This document shows positions 10,438-27,955 of a stretch of DNA of 44,298 nt, in pieces. A model generated the notes under the pieces. That model was not told the origin of the DNA. It saw only the letters and a list, made by a program, of their open reading frames with translations, and ran no database searches. The translations under genes and the position numbers were made by a program. This stretch comes from a virus. The DNA lies in the IMG/VR virus record IMGVR_UViG_3300010379_000012, positions 1 through 44,298 of that record. One strand, written 5' to 3'. The stretch's first letter is position 1. The number at the start of each line of letters is the position of its first letter.

Positions 10438-10440
10438 CGC

Positions 10441-11949: not shown

Positions 11950-12134
11950 GTGACCTGGCAGACCGCGACCGCGCAAAGCGGATTCTGGATATCCTTTTGG
12001 ACCGGCCCGCGCCGCCGGCGCCGCCGGCGTCGAAAGTCACCATCGAGGAAATCGTGCGCCGCAAAACTTCGATCGTGCGCGTGGGCGGAAAACTTTACCG
12101 TATCCGGGCGACCGAAGTGGAACTAACAGGATGA
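11946..12134 (+). CDS. Small hypothetical protein, 62 aa
   Basis: ATG at 11946 overlaps the terminase stop. The N-terminus is helical and charged (LADRDRAKRILDILLDR), then comes a proline/alanine linker and a strand-rich part (VRVGGKLYRIRATEVELTG). It overlaps the following gene by four bases. A small operon-embedded phage protein of unknown function. Confidence 0.5.
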   Translation: MSDLADRDRAKRILDILLDRPAPPAPPASKVTIEEIVRRKTSIVRVGGKLYRIRATEVELTG

Positions 12135-12358
12135 TGAGGCTCTGGCTTTTGCGCCGCACCGACACGTGTTGCATATACGACGCCAACGAGGGCTTTGTCG
12201 TGAGAGCCGAAGATTCGGCCAGTGCCCGTCAATACGCCGAAGAGGAGTGCTGCGACGAAGGCAGAGGGACCTGGCTTTCGGAAGTGAATTCGAGTTGCAT
12301 CGAATTGCGCGCAGAGGGCGTGCCTGGCGTCGTCATCAAGGATTTCCTCGCGGGCTGA
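12131..12358 (+). CDS. Small hypothetical protein, 75 aa
   Basis: ATGATG start overlapping the previous stop. The product has four cysteines (DTCCIYDAN, EEECCDEGRG) and a pattern typical of a small alpha/beta protein (LWLLRRTDTCCIYDANEGFV, then VRAEDSASARQYAEEE). Similar small proteins that read as W.LRR.D...YD...GFVV.A....AR are frequent in phage and actinobacterial genomes, but no function is established. Confidence 0.55.
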   Translation: MMRLWLLRRTDTCCIYDANEGFVVRAEDSASARQYAEEECCDEGRGTWLSEVNSSCIELRAEGVPGVVIKDFLAG

Positions 12359-12361
12359 TTC

Positions 12362-12607
12362 ATGAACTGGGCCGAGTTCGACCGCACCATCGAAGAGTTC
12401 GATAAGACCGGCGAGTGGCAGCCGCCCCGATGGATGGGTGAGCCGGCTACCGCGCCGGCGCCAGAGGTCGCCGTGCCGGAGCTGCCGGCGGAAGAGCGGA
12501 CTGGTCCGCCGCCCCGCCTTCCCTCCCGCGTCGAGCCGGTGAGAGTGCCGAGTTACCGCACGAGCCAGTACGCCTCGCGTGTGATCGAGGCCAAGAGTTT
12601 CGACTGA
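12362..12607 (+). CDS. Small hypothetical protein, 81 aa
   Basis: ATG 3 bases after the previous stop. The product opens with NWAEFDRTIEEFDKTGEW, then a long proline-rich and acidic region, and ends with VPSYRTSQYASRVIEAKSFD. It is mostly disordered. Unknown function. A near-perfect 26-base palindrome begins at the first base after its stop codon. Confidence 0.5.
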   Translation: MNWAEFDRTIEEFDKTGEWQPPRWMGEPATAPAPEVAVPELPAEERTGPPPRLPSRVEPVRVPSYRTSQYASRVIEAKSFD

Positions 12608-12633
12608 CGACTTAATTCCCCGGAATTTAGTCG
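12608..12633. repeat. 26-base near-perfect palindrome
   Basis: CGACTTAATTCC (12608-12619), CC, then GGAATTTAGTCG (12622-12633); the arms match except one T/T position. It starts at the base after a stop codon and is AT-rich compared with its surroundings. It could be a weak terminator, an operator or an RNA-processing hairpin. Confidence 0.5.
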
Positions 12634-12662
12634 CATTCTTTCATAAAGCGTTGACGCGCGGC

Positions 12663-12965
12663 ATGATAACCGAAAAACAGCCATCCCCCTACGCCTTCCG
12701 CACTCTGCCTGCTACCGCACAGTGCAATCAAACGACGCCCGACGCGCCCCCGCTCACCGGCCGCGCCGCCGACCAGGTGGCGTCGCTCTACGAACTCAAC
12801 AGGTCCCTCGGCAGGCTGCGCGAGCGCCTGTTCGGCGAGGGCGAAACGGTCCCGGATGAAGTTCCGGGCCCCAAGGGTCCCGCCCTCGAAGTATCGATCG
12901 GCGGCATGGAATACCAGACGCGCAACGCACACGCACAGGTCAGCTCGATCCTGGAGCGCCTGTAG
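12663..12965 (+). CDS. Hypothetical phage protein, 100 aa
   Basis: ATG at 12663; an in-frame TTG at 12651 is an alternative start. The product starts MITEKQPSPYAFRTL, has a central helix (RAADQVASLYELNRSLGRLR) and ends in another helix (NAHAQVSSILERL). It resembles small coiled phage proteins. It is followed by a pair of strong GC hairpins. Confidence 0.5.
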   Translation: MITEKQPSPYAFRTLPATAQCNQTTPDAPPLTGRAADQVASLYELNRSLGRLRERLFGEGETVPDEVPGPKGPALEVSIGGMEYQTRNAHAQVSSILERL

Positions 12966-12970
12966 AGCCA

Positions 12971-13011
12971 GCGGGGGCTAAAGCCCGCCGGGGCGGCTCG
13001 AAGGCCGCCCC
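12971..13011. repeat. Two adjacent GC hairpins, REP-like
   Basis: The first hairpin (12971-12988) pairs GGGCT with AGCCC and adjoining GC pairs. The second (12990-13011) has a perfect 8-bp stem GGGGCGGC/GCCGCCCC around a TCGAAG loop. Neither is followed by a T run, so they look more like dispersed REP-type hairpins or mRNA-stabilising structures than terminators. Hairpins of the form GGGGGCTAAAGCCC are, as I recall, widespread in acidobacterial genomes. Confidence 0.55.
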
Positions 13012-13046
13012 ACGAATTCCCAACGATTTCCCAACGGAGTTTTCCC

Positions 13047-13373
13047 ATGGCAACCAAACACGAAGTCAAGGTCACCGCTTCGCGCGGCGGCAAACGGCCC
13101 AGCCGCGAGCTGGAGCGCATCGTCATCGAACCCGGCGCCAACGGCGGCCACACCGTCAAGCACCACTACAAACCGCCCAAGGCGCGCAAGGGCATGTCGA
13201 TGCCGTATGAAGAGCCGGAGAGCTTCCCGTTCTCGAATAAGGCCGACACCATGCAGCACCTGGACCAGAACCTGCCGGGCCCGAGCGTGATGAGCGCGAG
13301 CAACGGGCCGGACGGCGACGAAGGCGAGGGCGAAGGCGCCAGCGGAGCCGCCGATAGCGGCGAGGGGGAGTAG
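13047..13373 (+). CDS. Hypothetical phage protein with acidic tail, 108 aa
   Basis: ATG with ACGGAG upstream. The N-terminal half is basic and strand-rich (ATKHEVKVTASRGGKRPSRE, then a HTVKHHYKPPKARKG stretch). The C-terminal 25 residues are almost purely D, E, G, A and S. This charge polarity suggests binding to nucleic acid or to another virion protein. No family is recognised. Confidence 0.5.
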   Translation: MATKHEVKVTASRGGKRPSRELERIVIEPGANGGHTVKHHYKPPKARKGMSMPYEEPESFPFSNKADTMQHLDQNLPGPSVMSASNGPDGDEGEGEGASGAADSGEGE

Positions 13374-13377
13374 CCCC

Positions 13378-13551
13378 GTGGCGATCGACATCAATCCGGC
13401 CCACAAGGGCATGTTGCACCGCGAGACGCATACCAAGGCCGGCCAGAAGATTTCGCTCTCCAGGCTCATGGGCGCGAAGCATTCCGCCGATCCCGCGGAG
13501 CGCCGGCGCGCTACGTTTGCGCTGAACGCCAGGTCCTGGAACCACGCATGA
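13378..13551 (+). CDS. Small basic hypothetical protein, 57 aa
   Basis: GTG start at 13378, 4 bases after the previous stop, with GGGGGAG upstream. The product starts AIDINPAHKGMLHRETHTKA and ends with ERRRATFALNARSWNHA. Its stop overlaps the next ATG. Small proteins with the pattern INP..KG..H....K.G..I...M..K...D......R...FA.NAR.W are common in phage and environmental sequences, usually unnamed. Confidence 0.6.
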   Translation: MAIDINPAHKGMLHRETHTKAGQKISLSRLMGAKHSADPAERRRATFALNARSWNHA

Positions 13552-14225
13552 CGGCCACCGTGGATTCCCGCGGAGGCGTCCGCGTCACCGCGGCGGATAT
13601 TCCGATTGAAGGCCTGCCCGCAGGCCTGCGGCCGGTGCGCTTCGGTGTGCCTGCCGCCGGCGAGCGCGTCTGGGACGGCGAACTCCGCACGGCCCACGCC
13701 GGCTGGGCCGTCTCGGTTTTGATTGTGGAAGTGCTCCCCGGCTACGACCTGCTGTACGACGTGTGCCGCGATCGCTGGCAGCTAGCCAAGGAGGCGCCGC
13801 CCTTCCCGCGCCCGGAAACAGGCGATTGGCTGGACTTCGCCGGCGAACTGCTGCACAGCCTCGTCCAGACGCCGTGCCGCCATGCGCCGGAACTCTTCCC
13901 GCCCTGGCTGATTGCGGATCTCGGCAAACCTGGCGCCATGGTGCGGCGCGCTTCGGCGGTCCTGACCTTCGCCGCAACCACGCGCGAAGAAGTACTCGCC
14001 TCCATCCGGCAAGCGGTGACGGAAATGGCCGCCGAACTGAATAGTCAGCCGGTCGAAACGATTCTCACCGGCGATCTCCCCGTGCCGCAGGGAGTCCGCG
14101 AGGCACGCGCGGAAGTCCGCCGCGGCGTCGCCATGCGCTACGTGCTCGCCCGCGACATCGAGCGCGGCTGGGTGCTGCGTTTCGACGTGCTTTACCAAAT
14201 TCAACCCAAGGAAACAAACGAATGA
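13548..14225 (+). CDS. Hypothetical phage protein, 225 aa
   Basis: Starts at ATG overlapping the previous stop. The product is a strand-rich protein with a WAVSVLIVEVLPGYDLLYDV segment, a middle with LDFAGELLHSLVQTPCR, and a C-terminal part ending VLARDIERGWVLRFDVLYQI. No signal peptide or membrane helix. Its end overlaps the next start by four bases. Unknown function, embedded between terminase and portal. Confidence 0.5.
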   Translation: MTATVDSRGGVRVTAADIPIEGLPAGLRPVRFGVPAAGERVWDGELRTAHAGWAVSVLIVEVLPGYDLLYDVCRDRWQLAKEAPPFPRPETGDWLDFAGELLHSLVQTPCRHAPELFPPWLIADLGKPGAMVRRASAVLTFAATTREEVLASIRQAVTEMAAELNSQPVETILTGDLPVPQGVREARAEVRRGVAMRYVLARDIERGWVLRFDVLYQIQPKETNE

Positions 14226-14482
14226 AAACCTCTAGCGATTTCTCGAAAGGCTCCCTCGGCAGCGCCAAGGGCAAAGCCGCCGACTCCTGTTCCAAGAGCC
14301 TCGGGTCGAGCACACAGGGCGCACACGACGCCAGTGTGCCGGCGACGGGCGAAATGAGCAAGGTGGCCAGTGTGGCGGACGCCAAGGGCAAGACCGACAG
14401 CATGGGCAAACCGACCGGCGCGGCGCCCAAAGCGGCCCCAACCGGCATGGACACCGTGCGCCGCGTCGCGGACGGCAAGTAA
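14222..14482 (+). CDS. Low-complexity small protein, 86 aa
   Basis: ATG with AAGGAAA upstream, overlapping the previous stop. The product is built of S, G, K, A and T with no hydrophobic core (KTSSDFSKGSLGSAKGKAAD, later DAKGKTDSMGKPTGAAPK). It is probably intrinsically disordered. It is the last small gene before a terminator-like hairpin and the portal gene. Confidence 0.5.
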   Translation: MKTSSDFSKGSLGSAKGKAADSCSKSLGSSTQGAHDASVPATGEMSKVASVADAKGKTDSMGKPTGAAPKAAPTGMDTVRRVADGK

Positions 14483-14549
14483 GCGGGCGAAGCGGCGGGC
14501 CGCCGCCGCGCCGCCGTCCGCTATTCATTTATTCACTTTTATGCAATAG

Positions 14550-14573
14550 CGCGGGCGGCAATCCCCGCGTTTT
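14550..14573 (+). terminator. Terminator-like hairpin before the portal gene
   Basis: The stem CGCGGG (14550-14555) pairs with CCCGCG (14564-14569) around an 8-base loop and is followed by TTTT. The surrounding 14483-14586 interval has no gene; upstream it contains another GC-rich inverted stretch (GCGGCGGGCCGCCGCC). It may partially separate packaging genes from the structural operon. Confidence 0.45.
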
Positions 14574-14586
14574 CCCGTCTTCCCTC

Positions 14587-16920
14587 ATGTCCCCCATCCA
14601 GCCTTACGGTTATAACCCGCGCGTGGCCTCGCCCACCGGTTTTTTCGGCGCCCGTGCCGAGCGTGTGCCGGTGGTCGAGACCGCCCCGGAAGATCCGGAG
14701 CGCGACCGCAAGGAGCAACTGCTCAAGACGGCGCGCCAGCGCTTCCGCAACATTCTCGAATACGAATCCGAGATGCGGCGCGAGATGCTGGAGGACTTCA
14801 ACTTCAGGGCGGGGAAGCAATGGGACCTCCAGGCGCAGAACGAGCGCATGCTGGCCAACCGGCCATGCCTGACGATCAACCGCATCAACCCGGTGATCAA
14901 GATCATCGTCAACGAGATCCGGCAGAACCGGGCCTCGATCGTGATCAACCCGGTGGGGAACGGCGCCGACCGCGACACGGCGGACGTGCTCGAAGGCATC
15001 ACGCGGCACATCGAGATCCGCTCGGATGCCGACAGCGCCTACGACACGGCGGCCGAACACCAGGTGACCTGTGGCCGGGGCTGGCTGCGCGTACTGGTGG
15101 ATTGGGTGCCGGGCACCATGGACCAGGAAATCCGCATCGAGCGGATCCCCAATCCCTTCGCGGTGCTGATGGACACCGCGGCCTCGCATATCGATTTTTC
15201 CGATGCGCAGTTCGGTTTCATCGTCGAGGACCTGGACCAGGCGGCTTTTGAACGAAAGTTCCCAGGCAAGGTCTTCTCGCCGCTGCGCGACTTCGAGGGC
15301 ATCGGCCAGTATGCCGACTGGTATCCGGAGCGCAAGTGCCGCGTGGCGGAATACTTCTACCTCGAGCCGCAGTCAGTCACTATTTCGCAGCTCGACGATG
15401 GCAGCATCCTGGAGGACGATGACGTCATTCCGGCCGGCCGCACGATCGTAGCCGAGCGCGACGAAACCAAGCAGCAGGTCAAATGGGCCAAAATCACGGC
15501 CCGCGAAGTGCTGGAAGAGCGCGACTGGCTGGGCGAGCATATCCCGATCGTGCCGGTGCTGGGCGATGAGATCCTGCTCGACAACAAGCGGCAATACATC
15601 GGCCTGACCCGGTACGCGCGCGATCCGCAACGCATGTTCAACTACATGCGCACGGCGGCTACGGAAGCCATTTCGCTGGTCCCCAAGGCCATGTGGCTAG
15701 CGGCCGAGGGACAGATCGAGAATTTCGAGGAGTTCTACCGCACTTCGAACACGCGCAACATCAGCGTGCTGTATTACAAGCCAGTGTCCAGCAACGGGCA
15801 GCCGCTGGCCGTGCCGCAGCGATTGCACGGCGAAGTGGATCTCACTTCGATCAGTGCCGCGCTGGCGCAGTCGGATCAAGACTTCAAGATCGTTACCAAC
15901 GTCTTCGATCCCAGTCTCGGCCAGCACGGGCCGGAGGAGTCGGGGCGGGCGATTTTAGCCCGGCAGAAGCAGACCGATACGGCGACGTTCTCGTTCGGCG
16001 ACAACCAGGCCAAGGCGATACGGCAAATCGGCCGCATCATCATGGAGCTGATTCCGCATGTCTATTCCACCGGCCAGATGATGCACATCGTGAATCCGGA
16101 CGGCACGCGCAAGCCGGTGATTCTCAATCACCCGTTTGTGCAGGGGCCGAACGGGCAGCCGCAGCCGGTGGATCCGCGGGCGCTGGCCGCCCAGCAGACC
16201 GGGCAGACCCTGCAGACGATCAAGATGTACAACGTCCGCCAGGGCGAGTACGACGTGAGCGTCTCGAGCGGGCCGAGCTACCAATCGCGCCGGCAGGACG
16301 CCGCGACGAGCATGATCGAGTTTTTGAAGGCCTACCCGCAGGCGGGGCCGTTAGTTGGCGACCTGGTGGCGGGCAACATGGACTGGCCGGGCGCCGCCGA
16401 GTTCGCCGAGCGGCTGAAAAAGATGCTGCCACCGGCGTTGCAGGACCAGCAGGGCGGCCAGCCCCAAGTCAACCCGCAACAATTGATGAGCGCTTTGCAG
16501 GGACTGCAGCAGCAGAACCAGCAGCTCATGCAATTAATCCAAGGCCGCACGCTCGAAAAGCGCCTGGAGCTGACCTCGAAAGAACGCACGGCGGCGGCCG
16601 ACCGCGCCTCGCGCGAGCGCATCGCCGACAAGCAGGCCATGGCCAGCGTGATCGGCAACGCCGAAAGGGCGCATTCGGCATCCGCCGACAAATTGGCGGG
16701 ACTCGATTACGCCGCCACCGAGCATCGCCTCAACTTATTCCAAGATCAGCAGCTCGCCCAGGTCGAGGCCGCCAACGAACTCAGCCAGGCCGAGGCCGAG
16801 CGCGCCCACGAACTCGAACTACAGCAACAGGACCATCAGCACGACCAGCAGCAACTGGACCAGCAGCAGCAATTCCAGCAGCAGCAACCACCGCCGGCCG
16901 GGCCGGAGACACAGCCATGA
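14587..16920 (+). CDS. Portal protein, P22 type
   Basis: A 777-residue protein that forms the dodecameric DNA channel at one head vertex. It has the features of P22-type portals: an N-terminal helical clip/wing region (RQRFRNILEYESEMRREMLE, FNFRAGKQWD), conserved NRPCLTINRINPVIKIIVNE, then a long mixed domain with the PNPFAVLMDT segment. The C-terminal part is helical and highly glutamine-rich (QQDHQHDQQQLDQQQQ), resembling a barrel extension. The length is slightly longer than usual because of this tail. It overlaps the next gene by four bases, which is an exported protein rather than the scaffold expected in P22. Confidence 0.93.
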   Translation: MSPIQPYGYNPRVASPTGFFGARAERVPVVETAPEDPERDRKEQLLKTARQRFRNILEYESEMRREMLEDFNFRAGKQWDLQAQNERMLANRPCLTINRINPVIKIIVNEIRQNRASIVINPVGNGADRDTADVLEGITRHIEIRSDADSAYDTAAEHQVTCGRGWLRVLVDWVPGTMDQEIRIERIPNPFAVLMDTAASHIDFSDAQFGFIVEDLDQAAFERKFPGKVFSPLRDFEGIGQYADWYPERKCRVAEYFYLEPQSVTISQLDDGSILEDDDVIPAGRTIVAERDETKQQVKWAKITAREVLEERDWLGEHIPIVPVLGDEILLDNKRQYIGLTRYARDPQRMFNYMRTAATEAISLVPKAMWLAAEGQIENFEEFYRTSNTRNISVLYYKPVSSNGQPLAVPQRLHGEVDLTSISAALAQSDQDFKIVTNVFDPSLGQHGPEESGRAILARQKQTDTATFSFGDNQAKAIRQIGRIIMELIPHVYSTGQMMHIVNPDGTRKPVILNHPFVQGPNGQPQPVDPRALAAQQTGQTLQTIKMYNVRQGEYDVSVSSGPSYQSRRQDAATSMIEFLKAYPQAGPLVGDLVAGNMDWPGAAEFAERLKKMLPPALQDQQGGQPQVNPQQLMSALQGLQQQNQQLMQLIQGRTLEKRLELTSKERTAAADRASRERIADKQAMASVIGNAERAHSASADKLAGLDYAATEHRLNLFQDQQLAQVEAANELSQAEAERAHELELQQQDHQHDQQQLDQQQQFQQQQPPPAGPETQP

Positions 16921-17390
16921 AACTTCTGACCGCTCTCTTTTTCTCTCTGGCGTTTCTGGCCAGCGCGCAAACGTCCAATTATTCCGCCACGACCGGCGAC
17001 GTGTCACTCTCGGCGGCGGCAACCGCTTTCACCATTCAGCAGCCGGCCAGCAACGCGCGCCAGGTCCAACTGCAGAGCGCCCTCGTGTTCTGTTCCGTAA
17101 GCTGCAACGTAACGCAGTCGCAGGACGGCACGGCGGCCACGTCCACCGCCGGCACGGCCAATCCCCTGCTGCCCACCACGCGGCCGGCCACGGCCACGGT
17201 ATGGACGGCTTCGAACGTGGGGGCGGGAACCGCGGCCGGAGGCATTCTGCACCTGGCGGCGGCGCAGTGGGTGGTGATCGATCTGTCGCAGATCTCGCTC
17301 GGCACCGGCGGCACGGGAACGAACTACACCGTTGCGATTTCGAGCATCACGGGTACGGCCAACATCACCCTGTTCTGGAGCGAGAGGTAA
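16917..17390 (+). CDS. Exported beta-rich protein, 157 aa
   Basis: ATG at 16917 overlaps the portal stop (ATGA). The N-terminus is a clear Sec signal peptide (MKLLTALFFSLAFLASAQ, cleavage near SAQ). The mature part is a threonine/alanine-rich beta-sandwich-like domain with one cysteine pair (VFCSVSCNVTQ) and ends TANITLFWSER. No family is recognised. Because the portal overlaps it, it must be expressed with the head genes, yet its product should leave the cytoplasm. It is the first of four such genes in a row. Confidence 0.7.
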   Translation: MKLLTALFFSLAFLASAQTSNYSATTGDVSLSAAATAFTIQQPASNARQVQLQSALVFCSVSCNVTQSQDGTAATSTAGTANPLLPTTRPATATVWTASNVGAGTAAGGILHLAAAQWVVIDLSQISLGTGGTGTNYTVAISSITGTANITLFWSER

Positions 17391-17394
17391 GCCC

Positions 17395-18534
17395 ATGCAG
17401 AAACTGGCGCTATTTCTTCTCTTGCCGGCGCTGGCGCTGGCGCAGGCGCCCAAGCCGGGCGGGGGCGGAGGCGGCGCGGGGCAGGGAATAGTGGTGGAGC
17501 AGGACGGCACAGCAGTCGGCTCCACAGCAACTCTGAATTTCAGCACCGGGTTCGGCATGACCTTGACGCCCAGCCTCTTGGGTGGCATCCTCACCGAACA
17601 GATCAACGTCAACACGGCGATTGTGCCGAGTTTAGCCAATCTACAGAGCGGCGTGCCGGTGACGTACATATCAGCCAGCGACAGCAGTAGCACCTATACG
17701 GCCTGCGCCACGCCGGTTTTGACGGCTTACACCACAGGCATGACGTTTGGGTGGAAACCTGACGTAAACGGCACAGGGGGCGCGACGACTTTGAATCTCT
17801 GCTCTCTGGGGGCGAAGTCCGTCACCCTGTGGGATGGGTCTACCAATCCCGGCCCGATCGACATCGTGGCGGGGCGCCTGCTGCCCATGTGGTACGACGG
17901 CACGGTGGCCCGCATCCAGGGACCAGTCGCCAGCCAGTTCGTCGCGCTGGGCGGAAACAACGTATTCACGGCCTCCAACGATTTCTCGGGCGCGACCCAC
18001 ACGCTGCCCGCCAAGAGCGGGACGATTGCCAACCTACCCGGTACGTGCTCTGTGGGCGAAGTTTATTTCGCCACCAACGCGACGGCCGGCCAGAATCTGT
18101 ACTTTGCGACTTCGGCCAGCCCTTGCACCTGGACACAGCAGCTTTATAACGCGGGCGCAGTGGCCCCGATGCACGTGATTTCGTTCTCAATTGGCTCAGG
18201 GTCGGTAGGCTCACCCCCCATCGTGACCGGACCGTTGAATGTCTTTCCATCAGCCGTCTATTCCTGCACGATCCTGGGGAGCGCGACGATTTCGGCCAAC
18301 GGCAGCGGATCGATCACCGTGGACATCTGGAAAACAAACGCGGCCATTCCGACGAGCGGCAACAAGATTTCCGCCAGCGCTCCAGTCACCCTGTCGAGTG
18401 CGCAATTGAATCAATCTTCGAGCACGTCCACCTGGAGCACGGCCGCTGTATCGACCGGAGACGTCTTCGGCGCCAGCGTGGCCACCGTGGATGGCGTACT
18501 TACGTACGCACTGGTGCAAGTCTGGTGCCAATAG
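17395..18534 (+). CDS. Exported fibre-like protein, 379 aa
   Basis: ATG at 17395 preceded by GAGAGG. The signal peptide is MQKLALFLLLPALALAQ, followed by a glycine-rich linker. The mature region reads like phage tail-fibre material: repeated short strands, WDGSTNPGPIDIVAGRLLPM (the V..G.L..M.YDGT pattern common in fibre repeats), then a C-terminal segment with SGSITVDIWKTNAAIPTSGN. Tail fibres normally lack signal peptides, so either this is a host-surface protein or an adhesin released from the cell. It begins 4 bases after the previous stop. Confidence 0.65.
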   Translation: MQKLALFLLLPALALAQAPKPGGGGGGAGQGIVVEQDGTAVGSTATLNFSTGFGMTLTPSLLGGILTEQINVNTAIVPSLANLQSGVPVTYISASDSSSTYTACATPVLTAYTTGMTFGWKPDVNGTGGATTLNLCSLGAKSVTLWDGSTNPGPIDIVAGRLLPMWYDGTVARIQGPVASQFVALGGNNVFTASNDFSGATHTLPAKSGTIANLPGTCSVGEVYFATNATAGQNLYFATSASPCTWTQQLYNAGAVAPMHVISFSIGSGSVGSPPIVTGPLNVFPSAVYSCTILGSATISANGSGSITVDIWKTNAAIPTSGNKISASAPVTLSSAQLNQSSSTSTWSTAAVSTGDVFGASVATVDGVLTYALVQVWCQ

Positions 18535-18542
18535 GAGACGCG

Positions 18543-20021
18543 ATGAAGCGACTGATTCTACTGTGGGTGTGGGCGACCTGTGCCTTTGCGGCGCTTCCCT
18601 CTGGAATCGTCTGGGAAGTCCGGCAGACTGGGAACAATTCGAACGGTGGGGGCTTTCTGGCGGGAGCGGCCGGGACGGACTACAGCCAGTTTGATGCGGC
18701 GCATGTAACCGACTCGACGCTGGCATCGACCAACGGCACTACGTCTCCCTGCATCATCTCCGACTCGGCGCATAACTTCGTCGCGGCGGACGTGGGAAAC
18801 ATCATCCAGGTCACGGCGGGCACAAGCTGGCTCACCGGCTTCTACCAGATAGTTTCTGTGGCTTCTAATAACGCCACACTGGACCGCGCGTGCGGCTCGG
18901 CCGCCTCTTTGTCGGCTGGTACCTGGGCCGAAGGCGGCGCACTGGCGTCACCGGCCACCGTGCTCGTGGCCGGCGGCCCACAGACGACCAACTCCAAGCT
19001 CTTCCTGAAGTATTCCTCTACGCCATATTCGATCACGACGAATCTCGCGGTCACCGCGGGGCAGACTCCCAGTTATTCGACCTACGGTTTCATGGTGATC
19101 GGATACAACTCCTCGCGGACGGACGGCTACGCAGTTGGGTACGCCAACCGGCCCACGGTCCAGATCACGAGCGGAAATTCCGGCGTGAGCATGATCTCCA
19201 GCGCGGTCAGCGGCACCTATGTCTACAATCTGATCCTGAACTGCAACTCGCAGTCCACCTCCATCGGGGCCAGCCTCACCGGCAACTATACCAGTGTCTA
19301 CAACACTTTAGTCGAGGGCTGCGACACGGGGGGTATCAAGACAAACGGCCAGGTGCTGTCGAGTGAAATCACGGGACTGACGACCAATGCGACCTACGGC
19401 ATCCAGGGAACCGGCATTTATACGCGCAATTTGATCCACGACAGTGCCGGTGCGTCGGGATTCGGCGCTATCCAGGGTAATGGGCAGGGCGGAACGTTCG
19501 CGCATAATCTGATTTACAACTTGACGAGCGCCACGAGCTGCGCGACCTGCGACGGAATCCAGTTTGAGTTTATCGCCGCGATTGTCGGAAACACCGTCTA
19601 CAACGTCTCGCGGGACGGCATGCGTGAGTCCAGCGGCACCTACCCCATGAACACCGTCTACGACAATCTGGTGGTGGCGGCGGCGGGCAACGGGTTCACG
19701 GTGTACTCCGGCAACGGCTTCAAGTCCCCCTTTCTGGATGGCAACTGTTTCTATGGCAACGGCGCCAACACGGCCAGCGACACACTGGCGACTGGGGTGA
19801 ACGGCAGCACGTTCGGTCCTTACGGCTACCAATGGAACGTGGTGGATGGTGCTAATAACCTGAATGGCACGTCATCCAAGGACTTCCGCCTGAAGGCCGC
19901 GTCTGCCTGCGCGCGCGCCGCGCAGCCGGGCGTGATGCCGGAGGGGGTGGTCTCGGGCGTGATGCCGTTTGGTGCGTTCGGCGGTATCGCCGCGCAGGCC
20001 AATGGAGCCTCGGCACAATAA
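18543..20021 (+). CDS. Exported right-handed beta-helix protein (tailspike/depolymerase-like)
   Basis: ATG at 18543 with AGGAG upstream; signal peptide MKRLILLWVWATCAFAA. The mature protein has an N-terminal beta domain and, from residue ~210 to ~420, successive rungs typical of a parallel beta-helix (YVYNLILNC, YTSVYNTLVEGC, TYGIQGTGIYTRNLIHD, FAHNLIYNLTS, IVGNTVYNVSRDG, NTVYDNLVV). Pectin-lyase-like helices of this kind bind or cleave polysaccharides and occur in phage tailspikes. Catalytic residues cannot be assigned by eye. Exported location and neighbours suggest an extracellular polysaccharide-active protein. Confidence 0.7.
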   Translation: MKRLILLWVWATCAFAALPSGIVWEVRQTGNNSNGGGFLAGAAGTDYSQFDAAHVTDSTLASTNGTTSPCIISDSAHNFVAADVGNIIQVTAGTSWLTGFYQIVSVASNNATLDRACGSAASLSAGTWAEGGALASPATVLVAGGPQTTNSKLFLKYSSTPYSITTNLAVTAGQTPSYSTYGFMVIGYNSSRTDGYAVGYANRPTVQITSGNSGVSMISSAVSGTYVYNLILNCNSQSTSIGASLTGNYTSVYNTLVEGCDTGGIKTNGQVLSSEITGLTTNATYGIQGTGIYTRNLIHDSAGASGFGAIQGNGQGGTFAHNLIYNLTSATSCATCDGIQFEFIAAIVGNTVYNVSRDGMRESSGTYPMNTVYDNLVVAAAGNGFTVYSGNGFKSPFLDGNCFYGNGANTASDTLATGVNGSTFGPYGYQWNVVDGANNLNGTSSKDFRLKAASACARAAQPGVMPEGVVSGVMPFGAFGGIAAQANGASAQ

Positions 20022-20023
20022 AC

Positions 20024-23000
20024 ATGCGACGGATGCTTGTTTCCCTGGCGCTTCTGGCCAGCGCTTGTTGCGCGGCCCAGTCAGTTGCCCTGAACGGCAG
20101 CTTCACGGGTACGTACACGATCCCAAACGCAGCGCCCTACAACAGCCTGGGCTCGTTTTATTACGATTTCCGTATTCATGGCTGGACCTATCCGGCGACC
20201 GGATGCGATAAGAGCCCACTCTTTCAGGGGGTCCGAAACAACTCCCTCGGATTCATGTCCGTTACGGTTTGCACCTATGGGGGCAGGGTGATCGTGCTTT
20301 ACACCTCAGACACGGTGACCGGCGGCGTCCCTCCCTCTGTGAACGCGCCGCACCTCTCGATCACTGCTGTCTCGGCCACCAATCCAGCAGTGTTGACGTT
20401 GGCTTCCACACCCTTTATCGCCTCCATGGCGGTCGGCGCGAGCATAACCTTCACGGGCATCACCAGCACGGGCTGCACTGGGCTGAATGACACGAGTCAG
20501 ACGATTTCCGCTGTGTCGGGCAATACGATCACCATACCGTGGGACGCGACCAGCTGCAGCTACAGCGGCACGGCGGGTCTGGCCTGCGCCGAAGACATGC
20601 TGGTGCGGGTCCACCGCGATTTGGTGCTGCAGGAGTGGATCCTGGAAGCGTGGGACGTGGGCGGCCAGGGCTACACCAGCTCCACCAACACGATCACCTT
20701 ACAGGGCACGATTGCGCTACCGTACACCTCCGCGATCGGCGACGCCACGGCGGCCACGGTGGACCTGGCGTATCTCCGCTGGTATTCCGGCACCATCCCC
20801 ATGGGCGCGCCGCCGCCCTCCGGAGCGAGCGGCGGCAACTTGGCGGATTGGGAGTTTGAGGGAAACGGCACCGACAGTTCGAGCAACGGCCTCAACATCA
20901 CCTTCGGCTCTGGTGCGAGTTACGCGACGAGTCCGGCTTATGCGCCCGCGTGCAACGCAGGCCCGTCACAATCGTTTCGCGCCGGATTTCCCGCGACGCT
21001 GAACGGAAGCCAGTCCTTCGCGCTCGATGGTGGCGGAACACTGACCTACGCCTGGACCGAGACGCAGGCGGTCGTGAGCACGTACGATCCCGGCGACGGG
21101 CAGAGCTTTGCGCAGACCTTTCCGCTACAATCCATCACGTGGAGCAGCCAGACCGCGGTGAATCCGACTATCACCGGGGTATGGACGTTTGGCCCGATGA
21201 ATTTCGGGCTCACCGTGACGCAGGGGAACGGCCAGTCGTCGTCTTGCTCAGTCCATCACGGCGTGGTGTTTACAGACAGTAATCGGGCCACCGTGGCGGC
21301 CACCGGCAATCCGGCCCTAAATAGCGCCATCGCCACGCTGATTGGTTCGGAGATCCAGTTTGGTTTTCACCCCTGGCCTTACTACGATCAGGCGGCGGTG
21401 TGGGACGCCGCTTATCAGGCATCCCAGTTGGACGTCGCGTACGCGAATTATTGGGACACCCCGCTGCAGGGCACGATCAGCGTGACCGCGGGCAGCAATA
21501 TTCTCACCGGGAGCGGAACCAACTTCCTGACGACGTTCTGCAATTCCGGCGGCGCGTCGCTGGGCTATTCGATCATCGTCTGGTATCCGACCGGACGCAC
21601 GATCAACGGCACAGCGGAAACCGGGCGCCGCGCGATGACGGTGGGCAGTTGCCAGGGCAACAGCCAGATCACCATGGGCGCGGTGTGGGGCACGGATGCA
21701 CCCGCCGGCACGGGGCTGCAATACGCTACCACCAACTCGCCCGGCAGCGCGTGGCCATACAGCGCAGCGCCGGCCAATTACTACGACAACGTGCAGGCGT
21801 ATTACGAGCTGTACTTCCGGAGCGGCATCGACACCTATCTGGCGGCTGCCCGGAAGTTTGCGGATCGTTTCTGGACATGCACCGAAATAGACCGGGGGAT
21901 GGCGTATGCCGCCGGCGACTTTTTCCAGGGCCCGTTTCGCTCACAGTCTGCCTCGGGGTTAGTGCTCCGCGCGCTCGACACCGGCGACGGACATCCCGAT
22001 ATGTGGGCTGGGCTGCACCTGATCTGGAGCTTCGCGGGCAACTACCTGGTGAACATTTACCCCGGCTGGGCGCAGCAAATGTGGACCCCCAAGACGACTT
22101 TTGGCGGTCCGCGGGAATGGGGCTACCCCCTCGCAATGCTGGGGTACTGCGCCTTGTTCGACACGAGCCCCACCGAACAGGCCTGGTGCCGCGCCAGCAT
22201 CAAGACTACTTTTTTGCCGACGACCGCCGGGTTGTGGGCGCAGACCTTCGACAGCGTGGAGCAGGCCTGGCTGGGCTGGAATTCGGAGAAGTCCACCTTT
22301 GACGGCTCGTGCCCCTACGAGTGGTGCGGAGCCGATCCGAGTTGGGCTGGATCCACGGTCGGGCTGACGAACGGATCGACAGCGGTGGCCTGTACGGGGA
22401 CCAATTGCGGCTGGATCGCGTCGGATTTCAACAAATACAATACCTCCGGCGCATCCTGCTCAAGCGGCTCGACTTGCGGCTATGTGCCTGTGCTGTTCAC
22501 GGATGGGGCAGCGTTCCCTTGGGACAGTTCGCACACCGATGCAGATGCGTATTGCTACCCCAACGGCTGCACTTTCATAGATTCGAACCACTTTACGCTC
22601 GACCGACCATACGACGGAGTTTCGGGTACGCACGGCTGGGTCATGGGTGTATCGGGCGGCTCGCTGGGCAGCGACTACAGGGGCATGGTCGGATGGGGGC
22701 AGGATTCCTTTATGGAGGGCATCCTGGCGTGGGGTTTCTATGTCGCGGGCGAAGCCATGGCCTGCAGCAGCAGCGGGCCCCCCAACTGCGACAACCCGAC
22801 TGCGGCCCAGGCTTACGCGGACGCCGTGCTGGCCGGCACGTGGCTGACCACCTATGGCAGTCTGCCATCGTCGTACGCGATCTCGTATTATGGCGGATTC
22901 CCTTCGTGCGGCAATCCGGTGAGCGCCACCAACACATGGTGCACGGCCGGCTACAGCAGCGTCCAGTCGCGTGAGATCGGCGGGGATTCGTACCGTGGGC

Positions 23001-23497
23001 TGCTGGACGCCTACATGGTCTCTCCCAGCACGCCACTCGAAACCAACATCGACGACTGGTACGCCGGCATGTGGGGCAAGCCTGGAACCAACCCAGTGGT
23101 TGCTTCGCCGGATGGCCTCTACGACAACAACTTTGATGGCTCCGGGTGTAGCGGCTGCGGCAGCTATCTGGAGGCCGGTTCCAGCGGGGACAAGTTTTTC
23201 GGACAGCATTTCGGGATCTCGGACCAGGCGACCTGGCCGGTGGCCCGCGCCGGCGGCGCTCTTGCGCAAGTGACGGTCTACGTGGGCGTGCGCATGGCGG
23301 ACGTGCCGAATGCCACGCAGCTTCAGGTCACGTACACTGAGCCGAGCGGCGCAGTGTCGGTCCCTGTAGTGTGTGCCGCTTCGCCCTGTCAGGTCACGGT
23401 GAGCAAGGTGGCGAATCAGCTACAGGTCGCTTATCTCTCCAGTGGCAACGCGGTCTTGGCCAGCGGCCAGAAGTTTGCGCTGCAGGTCGGGCAGTAA
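20024..23497 (+). CDS. Exported 1157-residue multidomain protein, alpha-toroid with beta inserts
   Basis: Starts 2 bases after the beta-helix gene; the signal peptide is MRRMLVSLALLASACCAAQ. The mature order reads as follows. A jelly-roll-like domain (LGSFYYDFRIHGWTYP ... VRVHRDLVLQEWILEAWDVG) is split by a small beta module. A PKD-like domain comes at ~320-420 (SFALDGGGTLTYAWTE). A long helical region with tryptophan/tyrosine-rich repeats (YELYFRSGIDTYLAAARKF, GLHLIWSFAGNYLVNIYPGW, REWGYPLAMLGYCAL) looks like an alpha/alpha toroid of glycoside hydrolases or polysaccharide lyases. Two beta modules (starting GTISVTAGSNILTGSGTNF and STVGLTNGSTAVACTGTNCG) interrupt this region. Many paired cysteines suit an oxidising extracellular site. 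A polysaccharide-degrading role is inferred, not proven. Confidence 0.65.
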   Translation: MRRMLVSLALLASACCAAQSVALNGSFTGTYTIPNAAPYNSLGSFYYDFRIHGWTYPATGCDKSPLFQGVRNNSLGFMSVTVCTYGGRVIVLYTSDTVTGGVPPSVNAPHLSITAVSATNPAVLTLASTPFIASMAVGASITFTGITSTGCTGLNDTSQTISAVSGNTITIPWDATSCSYSGTAGLACAEDMLVRVHRDLVLQEWILEAWDVGGQGYTSSTNTITLQGTIALPYTSAIGDATAATVDLAYLRWYSGTIPMGAPPPSGASGGNLADWEFEGNGTDSSSNGLNITFGSGASYATSPAYAPACNAGPSQSFRAGFPATLNGSQSFALDGGGTLTYAWTETQAVVSTYDPGDGQSFAQTFPLQSITWSSQTAVNPTITGVWTFGPMNFGLTVTQGNGQSSSCSVHHGVVFTDSNRATVAATGNPALNSAIATLIGSEIQFGFHPWPYYDQAAVWDAAYQASQLDVAYANYWDTPLQGTISVTAGSNILTGSGTNFLTTFCNSGGASLGYSIIVWYPTGRTINGTAETGRRAMTVGSCQGNSQITMGAVWGTDAPAGTGLQYATTNSPGSAWPYSAAPANYYDNVQAYYELYFRSGIDTYLAAARKFADRFWTCTEIDRGMAYAAGDFFQGPFRSQSASGLVLRALDTGDGHPDMWAGLHLIWSFAGNYLVNIYPGWAQQMWTPKTTFGGPREWGYPLAMLGYCALFDTSPTEQAWCRASIKTTFLPTTAGLWAQTFDSVEQAWLGWNSEKSTFDGSCPYEWCGADPSWAGSTVGLTNGSTAVACTGTNCGWIASDFNKYNTSGASCSSGSTCGYVPVLFTDGAAFPWDSSHTDADAYCYPNGCTFIDSNHFTLDRPYDGVSGTHGWVMGVSGGSLGSDYRGMVGWGQDSFMEGILAWGFYVAGEAMACSSSGPPNCDNPTAAQAYADAVLAGTWLTTYGSLPSSYAISYYGGFPSCGNPVSATNTWCTAGYSSVQSREIGGDSYRGLLDAYMVSPSTPLETNIDDWYAGMWGKPGTNPVVASPDGLYDNNFDGSGCSGCGSYLEAGSSGDKFFGQHFGISDQATWPVARAGGALAQVTVYVGVRMADVPNATQLQVTYTEPSGAVSVPVVCAASPCQVTVSKVANQLQVAYLSSGNAVLASGQKFALQVGQ

Positions 23498-23581: not shown

Positions 23582-24706
23582 TTGATTACAGTAGCCTCCA
23601 CCACCGAGAGCCCGGAACAGATTAAAGCCGACCTGGTATCGGCCGGCTTTAAGGTCAACGATGAGACCACCGATGTCACGGGCAAAACGGTGGAAGCCAC
23701 ACCCGCCACACCCCCCACGCCCGCGGCAGAAACGGCGACCACGGTCGCTACCGACCCCGCCGCAGGCCAAACCGCCGCCGAATTGGAAACGGCAACCAAC
23801 CACGAGCCGGAAACCACGGAAGCACCCGCCGGTACACCGGATAAGACGAACAAGAAATTACTGAAGCGCATCGACAAGACCACCGCCAAATGGCGTACGG
23901 AACAGTCGCGGCGAGAGCAGCTCGAAGCGGAAAACGCGGAACTGCGGCGCAAGCTGGCCGGAGGCGGCGAGGGTGTACAAGCGCCCAAACCGCCGGTAGA
24001 GCCAGCCGCGCCCGAAACCGCGACTACTGCCGCCGAAGAGCCGGCCGCCGCTGCCGCGCCCGCCGCCCAAGAGCCGGCGCCGCCCAAACGGCCCCGCCAG
24101 GCCGACTACGCGGACTGGGACGAATACGAAGCCGCTTTGGACAAACACGAACAGGATCTTATCCAGTATCACCGGACGCTGGCGCAAGCCGAGACGCGCA
24201 AGCAGCAGGAAGCCGAGCAGGCTAACAAACAGGCGCAGCAGGCCAACGAACAGTGGGCGACCATCGCCACCGAAGGCCAGAAGCGCTATGCCGACTGGGA
24301 CGCGGTAAAGCCCCAGGCCGGCAGCGAGAACGATGTCCAGTTCCAGGCGGAACTGGGCGCGTTGATCCAGGTATCGAAGATCGCTCCCGACATTCTCTAC
24401 CACCTGGCCAAGAATCCCGCCGATGCACGCTATATCGCGGGATTGCCGGTGCCGGTGGCCGCGCGGGAGCTGGGACGCCTGGAAGCCTATCTCGAACAGA
24501 ACACGGCCGCACCCTCCAGGGGCGCCGCGCCCGCTCGTTCCGCCGCCGCGCCGGCAACCCCGGCGACCGCTCGTGAAACCATCACACCCAAGTCCACTCC
24601 CATTAGTCCCGTGAACACGGGAACCGCCAGCCTGGGGGCCAGCGATCCGGGGCAACTGACGCCCCGTGAGTACCGCCGGCGCCGTATGGCGGGCGAGATC
24701 CACTAA
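23582..24706 (+). CDS. Scaffold protein (capsid assembly)
   Basis: TTG start with AAAGGAA (23569-23575) upstream; no ATG fits. The 374-residue product is highly charged and low in hydrophobics. It has a Thr/Ala/Pro-rich start, a coiled-coil segment (~95-125, RREQLEAENAELRRKLAG), a Pro/Ala-rich linker, a second helical region (DLIQYHRTLAQAETRKQQEA) and a C-terminal basic PREYRRRRMAGEIH. This organisation is that of phage scaffolds, which drive coat assembly through a basic C-terminal end and then exit. Position directly before the coat gene (apart from an HNH insertion) supports it. Confidence 0.85.
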   Translation: MITVASTTESPEQIKADLVSAGFKVNDETTDVTGKTVEATPATPPTPAAETATTVATDPAAGQTAAELETATNHEPETTEAPAGTPDKTNKKLLKRIDKTTAKWRTEQSRREQLEAENAELRRKLAGGGEGVQAPKPPVEPAAPETATTAAEEPAAAAAPAAQEPAPPKRPRQADYADWDEYEAALDKHEQDLIQYHRTLAQAETRKQQEAEQANKQAQQANEQWATIATEGQKRYADWDAVKPQAGSENDVQFQAELGALIQVSKIAPDILYHLAKNPADARYIAGLPVPVAARELGRLEAYLEQNTAAPSRGAAPARSAAAPATPATARETITPKSTPISPVNTGTASLGASDPGQLTPREYRRRRMAGEIH

Positions 24707-24832: not shown

Positions 24833-24846
24833 GGTCACCAATGAAG
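24833..24846 (+). repeat. 14-base near-copy of the coat-gene start region
   Basis: GGTCACCAATGAAG here matches GGTGACCAATGAAG at 25641-25654 at 13 of 14 positions, 808 bases apart. The first copy spans the start codon of the HNH gene, the second lies near the start of the coat gene. It may be a target-site duplication or a remnant of the interrupted coat leader. Confidence 0.45.
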
Positions 24847-25548
24847 AAGAAGGCTTGCACCAAATGCAAGGTCGAGAAACCGCTCGACGACTTCGTTCCG
24901 CACAAGCAATGTCGGAACGGCCGCGCTGGAGTATGCAAGGCATGCCAACGCGAGTACTTCTCGAAATGGGCCAAAAAGCATCCCGGCCCGGTTCATGTTA
25001 AACCGGCGCCGACCCACAAAGTCTGCGCTAAGTGCGGTCTCGACCAGCCGATCAAGGAATATGTGCGGGACAAGAATCGCACGAACGGGCGATACCCGAC
25101 GTGCAGAACTTGCCGCATCGCTTATTACGAAGAAAACCGGGGGCGGCTCTGCCAGCAGATGGCAGCTTATCGGGAAGCCAACGCCGCGAGCGTGCTTTCG
25201 GACAAACAACGATATGCCAGAAAGCGCTTTTTCTACAAGCGGGCCAGTAACCTGCTCATCCGGGCGCGTAACGACGGCGCCACGCTGCTTCCCCAATGCG
25301 CAGACCTTACGACGGCCCTGTCGCGGCTCTGGAAACGCCAGCGTGGTATCTGTCCTGTTACGGGCAGGCGCCTCAACCGGGACAATGCGCAACTCGATCA
25401 CATTGTGCCGCTCAAACGCGGCGGAAGAGATGAGATCGAAAACCTGCGCTGGGTTCACCGGGACGTGAACTACGCCAAGCGCGACCTGCTCGACCAGAAT
25501 TTCTTTCGGCTTTGCATCGACGTAGTACAGCACCTAAACCTGATCTAA
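24841..25548 (+). CDS. HNH endonuclease with zinc-ribbon repeats (homing type)
   Basis: A 235-residue protein. Two zinc-ribbon-like repeats lie at the N-terminus (CTKC at 6-9 with CKAC at 32-35; CAKC at 62-65 with CRTC at 88-91). They are followed by a helical linker and a C-terminal HNH nuclease (ICPVTGRRL, then DHIVPLKRGG with D186-H187, and N201 in ENLRWVHRDVN). Such genes are mobile endonucleases that cut phage DNA lacking the insertion. The location between scaffold and coat, which are normally adjacent, supports insertion of a free-standing homing gene. No ribosome-binding site lies at a normal distance from the ATG. Confidence 0.88.
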   Translation: MKKKACTKCKVEKPLDDFVPHKQCRNGRAGVCKACQREYFSKWAKKHPGPVHVKPAPTHKVCAKCGLDQPIKEYVRDKNRTNGRYPTCRTCRIAYYEENRGRLCQQMAAYREANAASVLSDKQRYARKRFFYKRASNLLIRARNDGATLLPQCADLTTALSRLWKRQRGICPVTGRRLNRDNAQLDHIVPLKRGGRDEIENLRWVHRDVNYAKRDLLDQNFFRLCIDVVQHLNLI

Positions 25549-25605: not shown

Positions 25606-26847
25606 GTGCCATTACCCAACTCGTTGCTCACGATTAGCATGGTGACCAATGAAGCCCTGCTAGTCCTCACCAACAACCTGGTTTTTGCCAGGAACGTCAA
25701 TCGCAAGTACGACAACTATTTCGGACAATCGGGCGCCAAAATCGGCGCCCAAGTTTCCGTCCGGAAACCGCCCCGTTACGTGGGTCGCCGCGGCCAAGGT
25801 CTCAAGGTCGAAGGCATCGTCGAGTCCGCCGTGACTGTGACGCTCTCCACGCAGTACGGCTGCGACATCGAAGTCTCGACCGCCGACATGCTGTTGTCGA
25901 TCGACGAATTCAGCGACCGCATCCTGCACCCGCAGGTAGCGACGGTCGCCAACATGATCGATTTCGACGGCACCGGCCTGTATAACACCATTCCGGATTT
26001 CGTCGGCACGCCGGGCACGGTTCCCGGCGCGAGCGCCGGCACCGCCGCTCTCGTGTTCCTGAATGCCGGCGTGGCTCTGGATAACAACGCCGCTCCCAAT
26101 GACGGGCTGCGGCGGGCTTATGTGACGCCGCAGATGCAGGCGTACCTGGTCAACGATCTGAAGGGCCTTTTCCAAAGCGCCACCAAGATCAAGGAGCAGT
26201 ACGAAAAGGGCGAGATGGGTACGGCCTTCGGGCTGGACTTCAGCATGGACCAGAACATGCGGACCCATACCATCGGCACCTTCACCGGCACGCCGACCAT
26301 GAACGCCACCGCCGGCCAGACCGGCTCCAGCCTGCTGACCACGGCCTGGACCTCGGGCGACACCTTGAATGTCGGCGACATCATCACCATCGACGGCGTG
26401 TACAAGATCAACCCGCAATCGCGCCAGGTGGTCAATCAGCTTCAACCGTTCGTGGTCACTGCTCCCATGGTGGCCGCCGCCGACACCACCGCGACGATTC
26501 AGATTTACCCGCCGATCGTGCCGCCGGTCAACGGCCTGTCCGTACAGGGGCAGACTGTTTCCGCCGCCCCGGGCGCCACTGCCGCCATCCACGTGTGGGG
26601 CGCAACCGCCACCGTAACCCCGCAGGGCCTGGTCTGCCACCGCGACGCTTTCACGTTCGCTTCGGCCGACCTCCCGCTGCCCAACGGCGTGCACGCTGCT
26701 TACCGCATTTCGGACGACGAGAGCGGGATCTCGATCCGCGCCATCCAGGCCTACGACATCCAGACCGACCAGATGCCGCTGCGCCTCGACGTTCTCGGCG
26801 GCTGGGCCACGCTCCGCAATGAGTTGGCCTGCAGGGCCGCCAGCTAG
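25606..26847 (+). CDS. Major coat protein, P22 coat family
   Basis: A 413-residue HK97-fold shell protein. The N-terminus NSLLTISMVTNEALLVLTNN and the following RKPPRYVGRRG, STADMLLSIDEFSDR, KGLFQSATKIKEQYEKGEMG and GLDFSMDQNMRTHT match the coat group related to P22 gp5. An inserted beta domain is visible around 245-330. GTG at 25606 is chosen because the family consistently begins N.LLTI.M.T.EAL; ATG 25639 would delete this. Neither start has a Shine-Dalgarno. It is followed by a hairpin that may set expression levels. Confidence 0.93.
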   Translation: MPLPNSLLTISMVTNEALLVLTNNLVFARNVNRKYDNYFGQSGAKIGAQVSVRKPPRYVGRRGQGLKVEGIVESAVTVTLSTQYGCDIEVSTADMLLSIDEFSDRILHPQVATVANMIDFDGTGLYNTIPDFVGTPGTVPGASAGTAALVFLNAGVALDNNAAPNDGLRRAYVTPQMQAYLVNDLKGLFQSATKIKEQYEKGEMGTAFGLDFSMDQNMRTHTIGTFTGTPTMNATAGQTGSSLLTTAWTSGDTLNVGDIITIDGVYKINPQSRQVVNQLQPFVVTAPMVAAADTTATIQIYPPIVPPVNGLSVQGQTVSAAPGATAAIHVWGATATVTPQGLVCHRDAFTFASADLPLPNGVHAAYRISDDESGISIRAIQAYDIQTDQMPLRLDVLGGWATLRNELACRAAS

Positions 26848-26926: not shown

Positions 26927-27532
26927 ATGACAAAACGAATCGTTTCTCTCTTCGCTCTCGTCGCGCTGGCCGCCGTTCTCGCGTTTGGCCAGGGCGGCAT
27001 CAACAAGACCACGCTTTCCAGCGCCGTGGACGCCAATCAGACTTCGCTCTACCTGGTCGCCGGCACGAGTCTTGTGCCGGGCATGATCGGCTACATCGAT
27101 ACGGAGGCCTTCCAGGTGGTCGCCGTGCTTCCGCCCAACACCACGGCCGCGGTAACCGTGCTTTCTATCCGCGGCTACAACGGCACGCAGCAGACCGCTC
27201 ACGTGAAAGCCACGCCGGTATTTGTCGGCACCGCGACGGACTGGGCGAACCTGGGGGCGGTCCCCGGCTCCAGTTCCGCCATCAGCGCTACGGTAGCCTC
27301 CGGCACGACCATCACGGCCTCCGGCACGATGTTCCACGTCAGCGGCACGACCACCATTCAGACCATCAACCCGCCGCCTAATTTCTTCGGCGGGTGCATC
27401 ACCCTCATTCCGGATTCGACGCCGACCTTGGGTACTTCCGGCAATATCAAGCTGGGTTCCACCGCGGTGGCGTATAAGGCACTCAGGGAATGCTACGACG
27501 CCAACACGGCGCTCTGGTATCCCAGCTACTAA
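26927..27532 (+). CDS. Exported protein next to the coat gene, 201 aa
   Basis: ATG at 26927 with CAGGAGA upstream at a normal distance. The N-terminus is a Sec-type signal (MTKRIVSLFALVALAAVLAFGQ). The mature part starts with a beta domain resembling fibre/decoration repeats (TTLSSAVDANQTSLYLVAGT, IGYIDTEAFQVVAVLPPNTT) and continues with a threonine/serine-rich strand region and a C-terminal SGNIKLGSTAVAYKALRECY. The second half resembles phage fibre-type beta repeats. Location after the coat gene would suit a head decoration protein, but decoration proteins are not exported. It lies between two GC hairpins, so it may be a separately controlled unit. Confidence 0.6.
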   Translation: MTKRIVSLFALVALAAVLAFGQGGINKTTLSSAVDANQTSLYLVAGTSLVPGMIGYIDTEAFQVVAVLPPNTTAAVTVLSIRGYNGTQQTAHVKATPVFVGTATDWANLGAVPGSSSAISATVASGTTITASGTMFHVSGTTTIQTINPPPNFFGGCITLIPDSTPTLGTSGNIKLGSTAVAYKALRECYDANTALWYPSY

Positions 27533-27610: not shown

Positions 27611-27955
27611 ATGACCTACGCCTATCCCAAGTGGAAACACCACGCCTCCCTGCCTTCGCGCATGGTGAAGGACCCGGACGAAGAAGCGGCGCTGGGGCCG
27701 GAATGGACCGACCGCCGGCAGCAGCCCATGCACGCCGGGCCGGTAACGCGCTGCCCGCACTGCGAGCGCGTTGAAAAGCAAATTTTTGAAATGAAACAGA
27801 AATTCGATGCGAGCTGGGCCGAAACCATCAAGGACCAGGACTACCTCAATAGCGAGATCGCACGCCTGACGGCCGACAGTGCCGCGCTGCAGAAGCAACT
27901 GGCCGCCGCGAGCAAGCCCCCGCGCAATAAGCCGCCGAAAGCTGCCACCCCATGA
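27611..27955 (+). CDS. Hypothetical coiled-coil protein with CxxC, 114 aa
   Basis: ATG at 27611, just after the terminator. The N-terminus is basic and aromatic (TYAYPKWKHHASLPSRMVKD), followed by a CPHC pair and then a helical coiled coil (EIARLTADSAALQKQL). The C-terminus is proline/lysine-rich. It overlaps the next gene by four bases. It may be a small structural or assembly protein; no family is recognised. Confidence 0.55.
   Translation: MTYAYPKWKHHASLPSRMVKDPDEEAALGPEWTDRRQQPMHAGPVTRCPHCERVEKQIFEMKQKFDASWAETIKDQDYLNSEIARLTADSAALQKQLAAASKPPRNKPPKAATP

Follow-up and report, generated by a model that had tools for sequence, protein, structure and literature searches.

The genes between portal and scaffold

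The window, the whole 44.3-kb stretch analyzed here, is the IMG/VR virus record IMGVR_UViG_3300010379_000012, positions 1 to 44,298. It contains a P22-type podovirus head module in which the portal (14587-16920, + strand; PF16510, E = 1.2e-164; phrog_156), the head scaffolding gene (23582-24706, +; phrog_8865, 7e-19) and the coat (25606-26847, +; PF11651, 3.3e-36) follow in P22 order. Terminase genes, three gp4-like paralogues, a head-closure protein and an ejection protein are also encoded, and an apparent integrase remnant lies at the left end. The window is from a soil phage, and because the best genome match and the relatives of gpD point to Acidobacteriota, its host is probably of this phylum.

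Between portal and scaffold, at 16917-23497, four signal-peptide genes (gpA, gpB, gpC and gpD) lie consecutively, with exactly the coordinates and spacings that the initial annotation had given. The ATG of gpA overlaps the portal stop codon (ATGA), the gaps gpA/gpB, gpB/gpC and gpC/gpD are 4, 8 and 2 bases, and the scaffolding gene is directly 3' of gpD. Shine-Dalgarno-like sequences precede gpA, gpB and gpC, with none obvious for gpD, and a promoter and terminator scan around the cassette gave no site clearly above chance. Since the coupling of gpA to the portal through ATGA indicates late expression, the cassette is expected to be expressed late, together with the head genes.

The signal peptides were scored with a home-made Sec/SPase-I scorer that considers the n-region charge, the hydrophobic core and an A-x-A-type site within about 35 residues. 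gpA (16917-17390, +; 157 aa), the core gene of the cassette, encodes a signal peptide (MKLLTALFFSLAFLASA, followed by Q; 16917-16967, +; score 8.19, 2 of 2000 shuffles) and a small beta-rich protein that does not look enzymatic. Its AF2 model is weak (pLDDT 61), and Foldseek returned a fold like that of phrog_5335 phage proteins (6e-7). Homology to phrog_5335 was rejected, the fold likeness being seen on the weak model only and the hhalign probability being 0.2%. A genome-contig scan found no gpA in bacterial genomes, and 396 Acidobacteriota genomes gave one weak, broken match.

gpB (17395-18534, +; 379 aa) consists of a signal peptide (MQKLALFLLLPALALA, followed by Q; 17395-17442, +; score 8.65, 1 of 2000 shuffles), a Pro/Gly linker and a tail-fiber module. 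Residues 71-211 match a signal-free tail fiber in contig L042 (1.6e-8), and the gpB signal and linker occupy the place of that fiber's N-terminal segment; the N-terminus of gpB also matches the gpB of contigs L006 and L008. gpC (18543-20021, +; 492 aa) has a signal peptide (MKRLILLWVWATCAFA, followed by A; 18543-18590, +; score 8.67, 2 of 2000 shuffles) and a repetitive beta-rich body, with no family (Pfam, PHROG) or phage-record match. The initial annotation called it a beta-helix protein, an assignment that can be made by eye only and that no Pfam, PHROG or PDB match supports.

gpD (20024-23497, +; 1157 aa) carries the highest-scoring signal peptide of the four (MRRMLVSLALLASACCAA, followed by Q; 20024-20077, +; score 9.08, 0 of 2000 shuffles), a beta-rich N-terminal half and possibly a helix-rich C-terminal half, with 28 cysteines in the mature part. 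The large alpha-toroid proposed for it was not confirmed, as no Pfam, PHROG or PDB match says so and the model, built from a two-sequence alignment, yielded no usable fold (pLDDT 28). A relative that is 38% identical occurs in phage contig L005, whose product has a PKD domain. Parts of gpD also have relatives, likewise with signal peptides, among proteins encoded on Acidobacteriota chromosomes (G034, G196 and G316) beside genes that by eye resemble glycosyltransferase and exosortase genes. These chromosomal proteins are apparently secreted and unconnected with virions, so that one possible origin of gpD is an exoenzyme acquired from a host.

Signal peptides and translation starts

Ranked by the scorer, the top five of 149 ORFs (at least 100 aa) are gpB, gpC, gpD and the genes at 4727 and 26927, and of 1297 other called phage proteins only 20 equal or exceed the gpA score. 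For each of gpA to gpD, 0-2 of 2000 shuffled N-termini score as high as the original. By our scorer, and in comparison with shuffled N-termini and with other proteins, all four have the scored features of Sec and signal peptidase I substrates, and the same two comparisons reject chance hydrophobic N-termini.

The cleavage sites share a further feature. Across nine phages we gathered 36 signal-peptide proteins, chosen by the same signal criteria and not by Q; in 32 of them Q directly follows the predicted site, versus 31 of 268 non-signal proteins (p about 2e-21). Among 17 predicted signal proteins sampled from one Acidobacteriota genome, five have Q at this position; this sample is small and gives no more than a hint that the Q preference is adapted to the peptidase of the host. 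Porphyromonas gingivalis phages encode proteins for Sec export in which Q follows the cleavage site (the Bacteroidetes Q rule), proposed to be host-adapted (PMC10367356); those are five genes of unknown function, whereas here fiber-like arrays stand in the head module of another phylum's phages. The cysteine content of the signal-peptide proteins is modestly higher (median 1.45% versus 0.94%, p = 0.005), and cysteine counts are even in 26 of 31.

Relatives of gpA, 62-70% identical to it in the mature part, occur in four viral contigs (L006, L007, L008 and L009). The portals of these contigs share no more than 28-35% identity with the window portal. Among the gpA relatives the mature part is 59-74% identical, while the N-terminal segment is just 14-55% identical and nevertheless keeps its signal character, the pattern that a functional signal peptide should show. 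Mis-set starts were rejected on the basis of the cleavage sites and the conserved mature proteins behind the signals in relatives, together with the ATGA-type portal/gpA overlap, which recurs in L007 and L009. The initial annotation had named ordinary fibers with mis-set starts as an alternative; the fiber-like character is borne out, but the signals are real and the starts are not mis-set.

Two further genes of the window encode signal peptides. The first, directly after the coat (26927-27532, +; 201 aa; signal MTKRIVSLFALVALAAVLAFG, followed by Q), has a homologue without signal in the same slot of the Acidobacteriota prophage G202 (L172, 15937-16506; 6e-7 in 31 sequences, 8.5e-6 in 1947). 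This homologue begins just behind the signal of the window gene, its residue 3 being aligned to residue 25. The second is a cohesin-like gene outside the head module (4727-5326, +; PF00963, 4e-4, under the curated cut-off), with a relative in L129 (436-1083). The post-coat pair bears on the proposal that the products are ordinary virion fibers in which the hydrophobic N-terminus serves as an assembly or membrane-contact segment and not as an export signal. Fiber homologies agree with this proposal, but we consider it very unlikely, given the A-x-A-type sites followed by Q in most of the signal-peptide proteins, the divergence of the segment with retention of its signal character, and the absence of the segment from the G202 homologue.

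Relation to tail fibers and tailspikes

The products of the cassette look like tail fibers or tailspikes, as judged from proteins in comparable positions. In the same slot, the signal-peptide gpB of L007 matches GDSL hydrolases and the tail-protein family phrog_15881 (1.6e-15), and the signal-peptide gpC of L008 matches the tail fiber family phrog_4201 (1.1e-48); a further gene of the L008 phage that encodes a signal peptide matches the tail spike phrog_2234 (1.5e-10). L128 has a pectate-lyase-like tail spike of 714 aa, L006 gpB is collagen-like, and L005 has concanavalin-like and PKD domains. Signal-bearing and signal-free versions form pairs, namely the post-coat gene and its G202 homologue, gpB and the L042 fiber, and gp12 of phage Tunturi_1 and the tailspike of Serratia phage MTx.

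For gpA to gpD themselves, Pfam and PHROG gave no significant match and INPHARED phages no match, nor do gpC and gpD match a PDB sequence. Against reading the cassette as a fiber array, gpA, gpC and gpD are without a significant phage-family match, the gpA model being weak and that of gpD useless; gpD has the apparently secreted chromosomal relatives described above; and the phage also has a large tail-fiber candidate without signal peptide (31846-35277, +; Ig-like PF05345), 3' of the head-closure gene (phrog_578). The latter provides an internal contrast, a signal-free gene of the same phage, and owing to its existence the array need not be the receptor-binding set of the phage.

As to the reading of the set in the initial annotation, a genuine signal-peptide set within the head module, with late expression expected, stands; that it is simply a set of secreted enzymes does not, because several products of the same slot in relatives, and in part gpB, belong to phage tail-fiber or tailspike families. 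The term polysaccharide-active is at most tentative: sugar-targeting folds (GDSL hydrolase, pectate-lyase-like, concanavalin-like, collagen-like) occur in comparable slots of relatives, but no catalytic family (Pfam) was found in gpA to gpD.

The set resembles P22 tailspike gp9 and other podovirus tailspikes in that it accompanies P22-type head genes and that slot neighbors match tailspike and tail-fiber families, some with pectate-lyase-like or beta-helix bodies. It differs from them in that the signal precedes or replaces the N-terminal part. Tailspikes described so far fold in the cytoplasm and are not known to carry a Sec signal. A literature search for signal-bearing tail fibers, with subscription journals and preprints outside its scope, found no report of this arrangement.

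A cultured example is available in Tunturi_1 and Tunturi_2, podophages of Tunturiibacter, the former (PP887698) isolated on Tunturiibacter psychrotolerans, of which X5P2 is a host strain; both are plaque-forming isolates, and recombinase/integrase genes are reported only for Tunturi 3-5 (PMC11924767). Signal peptides and mass spectrometry do not come up in the main text of that paper. The stretch 10371-23028 of Tunturi_1, flanked by a tail gene and the endolysin gene, encodes five products on which we found signals, namely gp12, gp13, gp14 (the annotated tail spike), gp16 and gp17; in gp12, gp13, gp16 and gp17 the residue predicted to come first after cleavage is Q. The same genes occur in Tunturi_2 at 97-100% identity. 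The large signal-peptide proteins of Tunturi_1 contain 10-32 cysteines, versus 0-7 in the other structural proteins compared, and gp12 carries behind its signal the N-terminal module of signal-free Serratia phage tailspikes, with which that of MTx begins. By inspection, with not every gene modeled, the only other fiber candidates in Tunturi_1 are small proteins of 98 and 124 aa. The fibers of Tunturi_3 (same host) and Tunturi_4 (related host) are without signals. Tunturi_1 and Tunturi_2 are thus like the window in having a run of signal-peptide fiber- or tailspike-like genes, but their array stands between a tail gene and lysis genes, and that of the window between portal and scaffold.

Among the four contigs with gpA, three have more signal-peptide genes behind it. 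L006 has four signal-peptide genes between gpA and the scaffold, two more after the coat and another (933 aa) between tail factors; in L008 the cassette is upstream of the portal, and in L009 the reading frames after gpA are broken. A comparison of portal-scaffold intervals in Acidobacteriota prophages, proposed in the initial annotation, revealed an empty site in L010, a prophage of Candidatus Sulfopaludibacter with a portal 42% identical, in which portal, scaffold and coat are adjacent and portal and scaffold only 48 bases apart. Four further Acidobacteriota genomes with P22-type portals had no strong signal-peptide genes nearby. The trait is therefore patchy, the cassette being present in some phages and absent in others, and the cassette behaves like a unit that can be inserted.

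Such presence and absence between related phages, the signal peptides and the integrase remnant would also suit moron genes, expressed in the lysogen and changing the cell surface or blocking superinfection. The known model is lambda lom, a signal-peptide gene among the tail genes (PMC12309495). The window resembles it in that signal-peptide genes are embedded among virion genes, and differs in its products: Lom forms a barrel in the outer membrane and is made in lysogens, whereas several large fiber-like proteins are encoded here in a run. We regard moron genes as unlikely, because the surroundings of the cassette lack a promoter or terminator clearly above chance, the ATGA coupling to the portal indicates late expression, the domains are fiber-like and not those of membrane proteins, and Tunturi_1 and Tunturi_2, both plaque-forming, are not among the phages with reported recombinase/integrase genes.

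Proposed export and action outside the cytoplasm

The best reading of the sequences is that phage fiber- or tailspike-type proteins have been fitted with host export signals. On balance we favor, with some reserve, a cassette of tailspike- or fiber-type, glycan-directed proteins that would be exported by Sec late in infection and act outside the cytoplasm at lysis. In this scheme the four genes would probably be translated at the late stage together with the head genes; their products would pass the host Sec translocon and be trimmed by signal peptidase I, mostly leaving an N-terminal glutamine. Folding would take place outside the cytoplasm, where the cysteines could form disulfides. The proteins would gather in the periplasm or beyond the cell, encounter the virions upon lysis and there bind or cut surface glycans, with gpA as a conserved common partner and gpB to gpD as exchangeable glycan-directed parts. 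Late co-expression, export, oxidative folding and glycan action are all inferred.

Given export, attachment to the virion and free action are about equally likely, with attachment slightly ahead; the MTx comparison favors attachment, and the gpB comparison and the chromosomal gpD relatives favor free action. As a sub-branch of the export reading, the proteins could never enter the particle and serve as diffusible depolymerases or glycan-binding proteins that loosen capsule or biofilm for the progeny. This we hold possible but rather doubtful. It accords with the exosortase-like and glycosyltransferase-like genes beside the chromosomal gpD relatives, with the lack in gpB of the N-terminal segment of its signal-free fiber relative, and with the separate signal-free fiber at 31846-35277. 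It is at odds with Tunturi_1, in which nearly all large fiber-like genes are signal-bearing, there is no obvious other receptor-binding protein, and gp12 retains a tailspike N-terminal module.

The textbook view is that tailed phages assemble all virion proteins in the cytoplasm. We put forward only tentatively that a group of Acidobacteriota tailed phages builds Sec-exported, trimmed and disulfide-bonded spikes or fibers beyond the cytoplasmic membrane, to join the particles at lysis. P22 tailspikes are added last, and their addition is possible in lysates, so that joining after lysis is physically plausible. An exported glycanase with a tailspike fold is known from bacteria, WceF of Pantoea stewartii (PMC7949094); it is encoded by a bacterial gene in an exopolysaccharide operon and has a Tat signal, whereas the window genes belong to a phage and have Sec-type signals.

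If the tailspikes are exported, part of phage assembly would be extracytoplasmic, the spikes would fold under oxidizing conditions, and assembly would newly depend on Sec and signal peptidase. Should the proteins remain free, lysis by soil phages would release sets of tailspike-derived, glycan-directed proteins, in a phylum that ranks among the most abundant in soil. An existing phage-host pair, that of Tunturi_1, allows a decision between the two outcomes.

The gpB N-terminus and other signal-peptide genes

The mature N-termini of gpB from the window (17395-17475) and of its counterparts in the viral contigs L006 and L007 have in common a Q-x-P-(K/R)-P-G segment followed by a Gly/Ser-rich stretch, and this shared segment is possibly a docking peptide. 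Outside the head module, a signal-peptide gene at 4727-5326 encodes a cohesin-like product, with a counterpart in a related phage (L129 436-1083; 1.4e-9). On the chromosome of the Acidobacteriota genome G196, three signal-peptide genes, two of them gpD-related, lie side by side (L122 7398-15640) and adjoin glycosyltransferase-like genes; no phage genes were seen.

The head module and downstream genes

An inserted HNH/endonuclease VII-like gene (24841-25548; phrog_1035, 2.5e-28) lies between scaffold and coat. Three genes of the phrog_12985 (gp4-like) family are arranged in tandem at 27952-28683, 28683-29402 and 29404-30087, and tandem genes of similar appearance are found in L023 and L028. The large last protein (42617-44296) begins with a repeated motif like 'IDFSKYGAVPAS', which is also present in the L007 phage (L126 3-5075).

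Recombinases and lifestyle

A serine recombinase/invertase gene is located at 6303-6992 (phrog_125, 4.5e-48). At the left end, where the record is cut, there is what looks by eye like the C-terminal part of a tyrosine recombinase (3-272), which suggests that the phage is temperate.
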